This document shows, piece by piece, positions 26,292 to 29,709 of a stretch of 29,905 nucleotides of DNA. The DNA lies in IMG/VR virus record IMGVR_UViG_3300020446_000053, positions 1-29,905 of that record, one strand, 5' to 3'. A program made the position numbers and the translations under genes. The notes beneath the pieces are model-generated. The model ran no database searches, was not told the origin of the DNA, and worked only from the letters and a program-made list of their open reading frames with translations. The stretch comes from a virus. Position 1 is the stretch's first letter, and every line of letters starts with the position of its first letter.

Positions 26292-26476
26292 TGAACTTTA
26301 ATAAATTATATAAAGAATTTAATAAACAGTGTGATTGCATTTATCCTAGCCCAGACGACGGCGACCATTATTATTATGATCCGCGTTATGTAGAATTTTG
26401 CGATGATAACGAAATTGACGCAGATGAATTTGCCGAGCTTGTTAAACAGCGCGAAGGCTGGGGAGATTACGACTAA
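26291..26476 (+). CDS. Small acidic protein, unknown
   Basis: A 61-residue, strongly acidic protein with many Tyr and Asp residues (PDDGDHYYYDPRYVEFCDDNEIDADEF). It has two cysteines near the N-terminus (CDC). Its ATG overlaps the upstream stop (TAATG), and its stop overlaps the next start in the same way, so it is almost surely translated. The acidic surface could mimic DNA or bind a basic protein, as seen in some phage antidefence proteins; no evidence beyond composition supports this. Confidence 0.6.
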   Translation: MNFNKLYKEFNKQCDCIYPSPDDGDHYYYDPRYVEFCDDNEIDADEFAELVKQREGWGDYD

Positions 26477-27246
26477 TGACTTACCAGTTTGATTTGTTTG
26501 ACCTCGGCAGCGCTTCCCAAACTGGGGAGCGCCAAACTGATTTGGAGGAACTAATTGACGAAAGCAAACGTCACACCAAAGTATTAGTTGGTTGCGAAAC
26601 CTCCGGCATAGTTCGGGAGGCTTTCCTTGCAGAAGGTTACGACACTTGGTCGTGCGATATATTACCAGCCGACACAGCAACAAACCGTCATATACAGGAC
26701 GATGTTCGCAACGTTCTTAAAATGGAAAGCTGGGATTTGGTATTTATCGGGCATCCGCCTTGTACAAGGCTTTGCAATAGCGGCGTTCGATGGTTGCACA
26801 AAGCACCGCCAGACAGAACCAAGGCTGAATTATGGCGAGAACTAGACGAGGGTTGCGAATTGTTTGCTGAACTATTCAACGCAAACGTTCCCTGTTTAGC
26901 AATCGAAAACCCAGTGATGCACCGCTACGCGAAAGAGCGTATTCAAAAACTGTCTAAATTGCCATTTCCTTGGAAAGCAAACCAAACAGTACACCCTTGG
27001 CACTTTGGCCATGATCCAGACGGTGAGGACGCAGTGAGCAAGCAGACTTGTTTTTGGACACGCAACTTACCGAACCTCGAAAAAACTGGAACGCTTACAA
27101 AAGATCAGGCGCGTGACGATATACACAAAGCACCACCTAGCGCCGATCGATGGAAGATCCGGTCAAAGTTTTACCCAGCATTAGCGGCAGCAATGGCACA
27201 ACAATGGGGCAGACACGCCTCGATCAATAGGAGGGCAGCAGCATGA
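26476..27246 (+). CDS. Compact C5-cytosine methyltransferase-like protein
   Basis: A 256-residue protein. Residues 36-44 (VLVGCETSG) fit the SAM-binding motif I, Asp61 after SC lies where the ribose contact is expected, HPPCTRLCNSG has the PPC at 94-96 with Cys96 in the catalytic position of motif IV, and ENPVMHRYA (144-152) corresponds to motif VI (ENx). The end, RSKFYPALAAAMAQQWG, resembles motif X. There is no large target recognition domain between motifs VIII and IX, so it is smaller than typical C5 enzymes (over 320 residues). It may methylate phage DNA to avoid host restriction. It is coupled by TAATG and ATGA to its neighbours. Activity is not certain; a related SAM enzyme with another target is possible. 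Confidence 0.75.
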   Translation: MTYQFDLFDLGSASQTGERQTDLEELIDESKRHTKVLVGCETSGIVREAFLAEGYDTWSCDILPADTATNRHIQDDVRNVLKMESWDLVFIGHPPCTRLCNSGVRWLHKAPPDRTKAELWRELDEGCELFAELFNANVPCLAIENPVMHRYAKERIQKLSKLPFPWKANQTVHPWHFGHDPDGEDAVSKQTCFWTRNLPNLEKTGTLTKDQARDDIHKAPPSADRWKIRSKFYPALAAAMAQQWGRHASINRRAAA

Positions 27247-27710: not shown

Positions 27711-28292
27711 ATGTCTACACGAGCAACTTATCAAATTTTTGATGATACTTTTTATATCCATCACGACGGTTATTTAGAGGGCGCAGCCATGTACTTTTTT
27801 AATATGGTTCAAGCTTCTCGACATATCCGTAATGGCATATGGGATTGGAGCAAACCAAAAGGCGGCGCACCGTTCGCATTTATTCGAGGCAATGCAAATT
27901 GTGAGCCAACAACAGGCCACGACGCGCACGGCGATACAGAATATAAGTACACACTATTCAAGGAAAACGATGTCTTAAAGCTTATTGCATTAGAAAGAAC
28001 TGGTTGGGCGACGGAAAGCTGGCATGGTGTTTTTTGTGGTTCGCTTTGCGATTTTGTTAATAAATATTACAACCACCCAGTTAATCAAATTGTTGATGTC
28101 AACGACAAATATTCGAATTATTTATGCACACGAGAGCAAGCACTAAAAGCAGCCGAAGGATATTTAGAGCAATCTAATAAATTTAATGACGATAACCCAA
28201 ATAAAATAGGTTACTTAAATACTGTAAAAGCCTTAAATACAGCTTTAGATAACCTCAAGCTTGAGCAAGAGCTATCAACTCTTAACGCCTAG
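27711..28292 (+). CDS. Conserved phage protein of unknown function (MSTRATY family)
   Basis: A 193-residue protein. The opening MSTRATYQIFDDTFYIHHDGYLEGAAMYF is typical of a widespread phage protein set (MSTRATY...YxHxDGYPEG) of unknown function. The middle contains FIRGNANCEPTTGHDAHGDTEYKYTL and ALERTGWATESWHGVFCGSLCDFVNKYY, with several His, Cys and Asp residues that might bind a metal. The C-terminus is a helix (AAEGYLEQSNKF). The gene has its own leader repeat. Its 3' end overlaps the converging DUF6378-like gene by 18 bases. Confidence 0.7.
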   Translation: MSTRATYQIFDDTFYIHHDGYLEGAAMYFFNMVQASRHIRNGIWDWSKPKGGAPFAFIRGNANCEPTTGHDAHGDTEYKYTLFKENDVLKLIALERTGWATESWHGVFCGSLCDFVNKYYNHPVNQIVDVNDKYSNYLCTREQALKAAEGYLEQSNKFNDDNPNKIGYLNTVKALNTALDNLKLEQELSTLNA

Positions 28293-28646
28293 CACTTGCT
28301 CGGCGGCTTCATCGAGGGCGGCTAGGTGGTCGCCCTTTTTATTTTCGGTTGCTGCTATTTCATAACCGATCGAGGCATAGCCCATTATATCCAACCAGTT
28401 GTCTAAGTGATAAGGATTAAACGAGTTGCGCGACATTTTATGCAGAACACCAATTGCAGCACCGTCTACCGCCTCAATGCTTTCAACTGATCGATTATAA
28501 AGATATGCGCGGATCATTTCAGCAAATCGAGTCATGTTTTCGGTCGGGTCGCCGTGTTCTTTGTCTCTATCCCCATCGACTAAATCGATAACTCGGGTTA
28601 ACGCAGTTGCTCTAATCGATGATGTTTCCAAATGGGATCGGGTCAT
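28275..28646 (-). CDS. DUF6378-like phage protein
   Basis: A 123-residue protein. ALTRVIDLVDGDRDKEHGDPTENMTRFAEMIRAYL and the later AAIGVLHKMSRNSFNPYHLDNWLDIMGYASIGYE give the pattern of DUF6378 proteins (LV.GDR...HGdp..N...iA.....y; K..R....D.w.DiaGYa). This all-helical family is common beside nucleotide metabolism or early genes in phages and may be related to dUTPase/MazG-type all-alpha NTP pyrophosphatases; this relation is an inference. AGGAGG precedes the ATG (28646), so the 35-base overlap with the upstream gene is real. Confidence 0.75.
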   Translation of the reverse strand: MTRSHLETSSIRATALTRVIDLVDGDRDKEHGDPTENMTRFAEMIRAYLYNRSVESIEAVDGAAIGVLHKMSRNSFNPYHLDNWLDIMGYASIGYEIAATENKKGDHLAALDEAAEQVLGVKS

Positions 28647-29229
28647 TTAAATCGCCTCCTGTTTTTATATTGATAATTTTTGAATCTTTAAATTCTTTCT
28701 TTGCTGCTTCCACCAACGGCTGTTGAAAGCTTTTGATGATCCGGCAAACTTCATCGAGCGTGTATACAATCGGGTATTTGTCTCGATCGATCGCCGCCGC
28801 ATCGCTTCCCCATTTAACGATAGCAAAGTTATATTCTCCGCAGTCAGGTGGTGCTATCCCATACCACACTTCGGCACTACCTGGCTTATGTCCAGCTTCG
28901 ATCGCTGTTGTTTCTAACTTACGCCACCCAGTAATAAGGTTGTTGGCTTTTTGAACGAGGTAATCGCTATCATCGAGGTGACAAGCTTCGCTGAAGTTCT
29001 GCCTTGCTTGCTCGAACTTCACTGCAAGGTTTGGCGGTGCTAGTTCCTCGAGCTTACCGATCCCCCACTTCATTTCTAGTTCTCGCGCTACAGCATCGAC
29101 ACTGTTTACGGCTGCACGGCAAATCTCTGCCCTGCTATCAGACCACATTGCTGAAGGTGTAAACCGTTCGATAGCATCATCTTGCTTACGCCTTCTCTTT
29201 ATCCTGTTATATCTTCCCTCAACTGGCAT
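28612..29229 (-). CDS. Unknown phage protein, early region
   Basis: A 205-residue protein with a basic N-terminus (YNRIKRRRKQDD) followed by mixed helices and strands. Phrases such as VWYGIAPPDCGEYNFAIVKWG and YPIVYTLDEVCRIIKSFQQPLVEAAKKEF are typical of a folded globular protein, but I know no named family. The ribosome site is weak (GGGGCAG before ATG 29229), so a shorter start at the internal Met (residue 28) is possible. The DNA just upstream is the hairpin and TTCCGC repeat region, so its expression may be controlled from there. Confidence 0.6.
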   Translation of the reverse strand: MPVEGRYNRIKRRRKQDDAIERFTPSAMWSDSRAEICRAAVNSVDAVARELEMKWGIGKLEELAPPNLAVKFEQARQNFSEACHLDDSDYLVQKANNLITGWRKLETTAIEAGHKPGSAEVWYGIAPPDCGEYNFAIVKWGSDAAAIDRDKYPIVYTLDEVCRIIKSFQQPLVEAAKKEFKDSKIINIKTGGDLNDPIPFGNIID

Positions 29230-29260
29230 AACGCTGCCCCGCTTCGATGCCTGTCCATAT

Positions 29261-29310
29261 CCCCTTAAAAGTACTACTATTCCGCGCTGGCGGAAGTAGT
29301 ACTATAGGGG
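29261..29310. repeat. Long imperfect hairpin with TTCCGC/GCGGAA at its tip
   Basis: Left arm: CCCCT, a few unpaired bases, AGTACTAC, TA, TTCCGC. Loop: GCTG. Right arm: GCGGAA, GTAGTACT, unpaired ATA-type bases, AGGGG. Fourteen inner pairs are perfect apart from a two-base bulge, and five outer pairs flank them. It lies 31 bases upstream of the leftward gene at 29229, and at the edge of the TTCCGC array. It could be an origin structure, a regulatory site or a terminator for the gene to its right. Confidence 0.7.
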
Positions 29311-29456
29311 TATGGGGGTTTACTTCCGCTACACTTCCGCCCATTTCCGCCCCATTTCCGCTAATTCTGGTGCTTTTCATTCGTCACTTCCGCTAATTTC
29401 TTCTAAAAACGTCGCCACTTCCGCCGTTTCTGAGGTTTGACCCCGTTCATTTCCGC
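29280..29456 (+). repeat. Array of CAyTTCCGC direct repeats spaced by whole helical turns (iteron-like)
   Basis: TTCCGC occurs eight times in the same direction at 29280, 29324, 29335, 29345, 29356, 29388, 29419 and 29451; the seven after the hairpin have (C/T)A(C/T) before them. Start-to-start distances are 44, 11, 10, 11, 32, 31 and 32 bases, all near multiples of 10.5. The last three sit inside the 3' end of the gene at 29377-29709. Such phasing places copies on one face of the helix, as in iterons of replication origins or cooperative operators. Confidence 0.7.
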
Positions 29457-29709
29457 CGCCGGAAGTAACGTTATCTGCGGCCGAAAACTCTATTTCTTTG
29501 ATTGTCCAATCGCGTATGTTTGCTACTGGGATGCTTAGACTTGCTCTATTATTAAAATCGAGGAAGCATAGTATTCCGCCGTCGGATGCTTGATCTGCAA
29601 GGTACTTTGATATGCCGCTGCCAGCACTAATCTCATACTCTTTTACTTCACCATCGAGGAACGTAACTTCCACTATAGATCTTGCCGCTTTGTATTTTCT
29701 TTCTCCCAT
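29377..29709 (-). CDS. Unknown small protein whose 3' end contains the repeat array
   Basis: A 110-residue protein. Residues 9-77 look folded (IVEVTFLDGEVKEYEISAGSG; IPVANIRDWTIKEIEF), like a small beta-barrel, and residues 78-110 are acidic and Gly/Ser/Thr-rich (SGGGNERGQTSETAEV). The tail is coded by the GCGGAAGTG-like repeats of the iteron-like array, so its sequence may be set by DNA needs. AGGAGA precedes the ATG, which is fused to the upstream stop (TAATG). Being beside the array, it could be a DNA-binding or replication accessory protein; this is a guess. Confidence 0.6.
   Translation of the reverse strand: MGERKYKAARSIVEVTFLDGEVKEYEISAGSGISKYLADQASDGGILCFLDFNNRASLSIPVANIRDWTIKEIEFSAADNVTSGGGNERGQTSETAEVATFLEEISGSDE

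Follow-up and report, generated by a model that had tools for sequence, protein, structure and literature searches.

In the alpha protein of phage P4, a single chain combines a primase of the bacterial (Toprim) type with a helicase, and its C-terminal winged helix binds origin repeats (PMC4234260). ORF904 of the pRN1 family has a PrimPol–helicase–winged-helix arrangement, and its origin, which includes an essential stem-loop, is located 3′ of its own gene; in the oriV of the IncQ plasmid RSF1010, the initiator recognises iterons and the primase acts at the hairpins ssiA and ssiB (PMC4234260). In addition, the parts of the PrimPol-PV1 study considered here (Kazlauskas 2018, PMC5862659) describe some members in which an AEP primase is fused to a helicase of the RepA family and ends in a winged helix, and suggest that the C-terminal winged helices of primase–helicase fusions may recognise origins. 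The protein architecture and this suggestion are already published. In the literature that we searched, the coverage of which was incomplete, we found no description of the cognate sites, of a fixed geometry or of a co-segregation between domain and repeat. For most environmental phages, the replication origin has yet to be located. Here, we describe a repeat array and an adjoining hairpin that very probably form the iteron-type replication origin of a tailed phage, with the winged helix at the C-terminus of its own primase–helicase as the likely binder.

The window, by which we mean the whole 29,905-nt fragment analysed (IMG/VR virus record IMGVR_UViG_3300020446_000053, positions 1–29,905), contains eight TTCCGC cores on its plus strand (29280, 29324, 29335, 29345, 29356, 29388, 29419 and 29451), with core-to-core steps of 44, 11, 10, 11, 32, 31 and 32 bp. 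The initial annotation had reported these eight same-direction copies and their spacings, as well as a YAY prefix on seven of them, and all were recovered exactly as claimed. It had also described every step as close to whole DNA turns, which holds for all steps except the 44 bp to the hairpin copy. Computed for a 10.5-bp period, the phasing of all eight copies gave R = 0.87 (P = 0.0004), while the seven non-hairpin copies gave R = 0.975, a value that none of 20,000 random placements reached. The extended motif CAYTTCCGC occurs six times in the 29.9-kb record, always within the array, and dinucleotide-preserving shuffles of 29161–29556 (n = 5,000) produced at most four copies, compared with the eight observed; an isolated ninth TTCCGC copy is found at 29574. 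Since both flanking ORFs are encoded on the minus strand, the repeat is best read as the 9-bp GCGGAARTR (Table 1). No DnaA-box-like site was identified close to the array, the nearest DnaA-like site being ~1.1 kb away, and promoter and terminator searches gave no matches above chance, with no sigma-70-type promoter match in the array.

Table 1. Positions of the array, the hairpin and the flanking ORFs in the window.
Feature	Position	Strand	Basis or remark
205-aa ORF, 3′ of the hairpin	28612..29229	-	kept in close relatives
Conserved hairpin	29255..29315	-	folding and covariation
Tandem block of four iterons GCGGAARTR (cores 29324, 29335, 29345, 29356; steps 11, 10, 11)	29321..29364	-	same positions in relatives
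AT-rich spacer between the tandem and spaced blocks	29362..29384	.	base composition
110-aa ORF	29377..29709	-	overlaps three iterons (29388, 29419, 29451)
Three iterons at three-turn spacing (cores 29388, 29419, 29451)	29385..29456	-	also in relatives
Degenerate inverted iteron CCGGAA	29459..29464	+	

Relatives were located via both flanking ORFs, and in those examined the array and the hairpin were retained rather than lost where the flanking genes are kept. Across 30 distinct arrays, the direct copies are positioned at about 0, −11, −21, (−32), −64, −96 and −128 from the last copy and the inverted copies at about −136, −146 and −156, with the hairpin copy at +34; a few arrays are partial or deviating (e.g. 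L053 and L071). In many relatives, the place of the degenerate inverted iteron is occupied by one to three intact copies at these −136/−146/−156 positions. The gap left by a lost copy is usually 43 bp (32 + 11) or 22 bp (11 + 11), indicating that helical phase is kept despite copy loss. At the place of the spacer, the AT content is 57–80% in nearly all relatives, and that of the tandem block is 38–54%.

The 50-base hairpin that had been claimed at 29261–29310, including the first TTCCGC copy, is real, and its stem extends to the limits given in Table 1. The outer stem is formed by CCATACCCC/GGGGATATGG and the inner stem by TACTACTTCCGC/GCGGAATAGTAGTA, with a two-base bulge and a 4-base loop, and the structure holds an inverted repeat pair, the inverted copy being located in the arm at 29290. 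Among relatives, 88% of cells were paired and 16 were compensatory, which none of 500 shuffles matched and which compares with 0–4 in slid controls. Across families, hairpin strength 3′ of the arrays had a median rank of 0.23, compared with 0.61 on the 5′ side, and the strongest 5% of hairpins were found at 11 of 46 arrays on the 3′ side and at 2 of 46 on the 5′ side. The hairpin is thus strongly conserved in window-like phages and modestly enriched 3′ of arrays across families, and it constitutes a conserved stem-loop 3′ of a replication gene, as in the pRN1 type. Its covariation, together with the overlap in some relatives between its 3′ arm and a GGAGG ahead of a GTG start, could also be taken to indicate an RNA element, in which the hairpin and GCGGAARUG repeats act in mRNA, e.g. 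by masking the ribosome-binding site of the 205-aa ORF. However, whole-turn spacing is kept even after copy loss, the repeat type goes with a domain predicted to bind DNA (see below), no Rfam family matched, and other families possess arrays without the 205-aa ORF, so that we consider a function in RNA very unlikely.

A large group of relatives carries a different gene upstream, exchanged right up to the edge of the array, and the array persists. An exchange at exactly this point would suit a packaging (pac) or recombination site, where arrays mark DNA cutting or a mosaic breakpoint, but the terminase genes are kilobases away and the repeat tracks the C-terminus of the primase–helicase, making such a site highly improbable. 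Taken together, the kept phase, the compensatory changes in the hairpin and the survival of the array through gene replacement show that selection acts on the DNA itself, as the initial annotation had supposed. Several copies do reach into coding sequence, the last three cores lying within the 110-aa ORF. This ORF had no match in a family search, and there are relatives in which the array persists but unrelated sequence takes the place of the ORF; therefore, it is not the reason for the array. In the more distant families examined, the array was not accompanied by the 205-aa ORF, whose predicted fold is of low confidence. When annotated phages were searched for distant DNA or protein matches to the flanking ORFs, none were returned. 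The neighbouring ORFs were rejected as binders of the array, which persists without them; the small neighbouring proteins had been put forward for this role, for which the C-terminal winged helix of the primase–helicase is the likelier candidate.

Several further observations were made around the array. In L011–L016, compared with L007/L008, the gene upstream of the array changes to unrelated sequence exactly at the array edge, forming a sharp mosaic breakpoint. Near the array, the window also encodes a DNA methyltransferase (PHROG 757; 26476–27246) and a 123-aa protein (28275–28646) matching PHROGs labelled phosphofructokinase, a doubtful label for a protein of this size.

In relatives, the array is located 3′ of a primase–helicase gene; in L007, whose ORF matches that of the window at 95%, a PrimPol–AAA_25 gene lies ~1 kb upstream of the array. 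Judging from these relatives, whose adjoining ORF reaches 95% identity, the corresponding gene of this phage probably lies just past the right end of the window, outside the 29.9-kb fragment. Pfam assigns Prim-Pol and AAA_25 to the protein. Matches to IncQ RepA span about residues 337–615 and place the helicase in the RSF1010 RepA type, and the helicase relatives include IncQ RepA proteins and gp5 of Wolbachia phage WO, itself annotated as similar to RepA of RSF1010. Scanning IMG/VR with the DNA pattern alone (three tandem repeats) identified 66 places, compared with 2 for the reversed pattern, and a primase–helicase gene was present within the fetched stretch at 46 of the 66. The element is not unique to this phage but one member of a widespread family. 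The same triple repeat was found at 59 places in genome contigs, three of them beside a primase–helicase (L112, L148 and L153). The last of these, from a Chelatococcus MAG, encodes the helicase and the C-terminal domain with no primase in the same open frame (L153:3430-4545), adjoining a GCGGAAGT array in a cellular genome. In two other loci (L020:4385-6696 and L026:1352-3662), the primase–helicase frame is split into two overlapping frames, which may reflect decay, frameshifting or an error in sequencing.

A winged helix is predicted for the last ~85 residues of the primase–helicase: AlphaFold2 placed helices before a two-strand wing (H-H-H-E-E; core pLDDT about 91), and Foldseek returned weak matches (best E 0.05), mostly to winged-helix proteins and including TubR. 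The domain, at about residues 619–714 of the L007 protein, is named in neither Pfam nor NCBIfam, and no PDB sequence matched it significantly. Trained exclusively on window-like phages, an HMM covering the C-terminal ~95 residues matched array-associated primase–helicases with E values from 9e-60 to 6e-4 and none of L092–L095. Comparisons with L007 further separated this domain from the helicase. L058, whose repeats are GCGGAAGT, scored 21 bits over the helicase and 58 bits over the C-terminus, whereas Rhizobium phage Y3_1 scored 210 bits over the helicase with no match at the C-terminus, and carries TGGGAAC repeats and a terminal hairpin directly after the gene. This decoupling argues that the association between repeat and domain is not merely shared helicase ancestry, and at the sequence level it is the C-terminal domain, not the helicase, that tracks the repeat. 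In support of this notion, repeats were predicted beside the gene in two domain carriers found among annotated phages by protein similarity, and the prediction held: 12 GCGGAGA copies directly follow the gene in phage RHph_N65 and nine GCGGAAG copies in EBPR siphovirus 5. Idiomarinaceae phage 1N2-2, which has no such domain, carries CGGTACA repeats.

The association was also examined blindly, by taking the densest 7-mer cluster (at least five copies) per locus with no motif specified, in loci fetched by conserved peptides of the primase–helicase or by the Y3_1 protein and in the annotated phages described above. Clusters were found in 33 of 56 domain carriers and in 15 of 18 non-carriers, and shuffled loci never exceeded four copies. 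CGGA(A/G)-type clusters accounted for 32 of the 33 beside carriers and for none of the 15 beside non-carriers, which had GGGAACG, CGGTACA and other types (Fisher P = 1.5e-11, a value that ignores relatedness, most non-carriers being close relatives of Y3_1). All 33 carrier clusters were positioned 3′ of the gene. The only one not of the CGGA type consists of nine CTGCGGC copies ~2.1 kb 3′ of the helicase (L219). Among the 35 carriers whose downstream sequence extends for 3.4 kb or more, seven had no cluster, which the origin model leaves unexplained unless their arrays are further off or degenerate. Microcystis phage Mae-Yong1326-1 (L274:5200-5500) encodes a RecA-family ATPase with a somewhat similar C-terminus; several CTGGCGC copies come after it, which may make this another domain–repeat pair. 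A second element, TAAGTCATTGAAA (variants TAAGTGCTTGAAA and TAAGGCATTGAAA), is located between the repeats in L037, L046, L092, L153, L157 and L172; since these arrays include both domain types, the element is more suggestive of a host factor or an opening site than of the winged helix.

The pairing extends to phage-plasmids. The 38-kb circular phage-plasmid Caenibius p1 possesses both domain and repeat: around twelve CGGAAG(T/C) copies follow its primase–helicase, and no other replication gene is annotated. The Agarilytica plasmid pSU2 combines GGGAACG-type repeats with the other C-terminus. Plasmid centromeres resemble direct repeats phased at about 11 bp, as found here, and TubR was among the weak fold matches, both compatible with a centromere-like partition site bound in the parC/tubC manner by a small winged-helix or ribbon-helix-helix adaptor. 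Here, though, the tracking domain is part of the primase–helicase chain and not a free adaptor, and no ParM, TubZ or ParA is annotated in Caenibius p1 or RHph_N65; a partition function is, therefore, hardly plausible. Phased repeats also suit cooperative repressors, and plasmid iterons often autoregulate too. An autoregulatory or cooperative operator, where the winged helix or a phage repressor would control the replication genes or the 205-aa ORF, would further agree with the position of the array ahead of that ORF in window-like phages. Yet the array sits on the 3′ rather than the 5′ side of the gene that encodes the tracking domain, the gene following it differs among families, and it contains no sigma-70-type promoter match. 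In RHph_N65, moreover, the array lies between convergent genes (helicase on the plus strand, next CDS on the minus strand), a poor place for an operator. The initial annotation had left the choice between origin and cooperative operator open; the origin is now much better supported, and the operator has become improbable.

The origin reading rests on a repeat matched to a domain of the primase–helicase, a protein with the expected replication role, and on the occurrence of this pair on the circular Caenibius p1. As in iteron origins, the direct repeats are in register, and an adjacent, repeat-specific initiator gene is found in relatives, which points to the same arrangement beyond the end of the window. 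We infer that replication starts at the array, where GCGGAARTR on the minus strand would be recognised by the C-terminal winged helix encoded ~1 kb away. The iterons, set on one helix face by the 10/11- and 32-bp steps, would gather several protein molecules; the joined RepA-type helicase would then open the AT-rich spacer and load, and the joined primase would begin synthesis, perhaps at the single-stranded hairpin. The hairpin may thus serve priming, which is the weakest step of the model. A GC-skew switch, which the initial annotation had proposed to look for, was absent at the array in four longer relatives. More generally, exchangeable C-terminal winged helices might read matching iterons in at least two pairs (CGGA(A/G) and GGGAACG), with primase, helicase and origin reader swapping independently, origins readable from the protein and arrays ending in a priming hairpin, a generalisation to which we give about even chances. 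If the pairing holds, origins and initiators could be located from sequence in many uncultured phages and phage-plasmids, and one domain plus a short DNA would suffice for testing initiation by one protein.

Compared with the described systems, each part of the locus has a precedent, namely the winged helix of P4, the stem-loop 3′ of the gene in pRN1 and the iterons, RepA and hairpins of RSF1010, and by analogy these lend support to the origin reading. P4 resembles the present case in its single chain with a C-terminal winged helix (here predicted). The P4 alpha helicase belongs to SF3; the modules found here are not P4-like but a PrimPol and a RepA-type helicase (Pfam Prim-Pol and AAA_25), with different, helically phased 9-bp repeats and a hairpin. 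pRN1 shares the PrimPol–helicase–winged-helix architecture (again predicted here), the element 3′ of the gene and the stem-loop, but has an SF3 helicase and no iterons, whereas here a RepA-type (AAA_25) helicase accompanies an iteron array and a smaller hairpin. RSF1010 has a homologous RepA-family helicase and iterons, but separate RepA, RepB′ and RepC proteins and the ssiA/ssiB pair, in place of one chain, 9-bp repeats and one large hairpin. The PrimPol-PV1 proteins are likened to ours by architecture; the parts of that study considered here name no cognate sites (PMC5862659), and, if the pairing holds, the arrays described here offer sites that the winged helices proposed as origin readers in primase–helicase fusions may bind.
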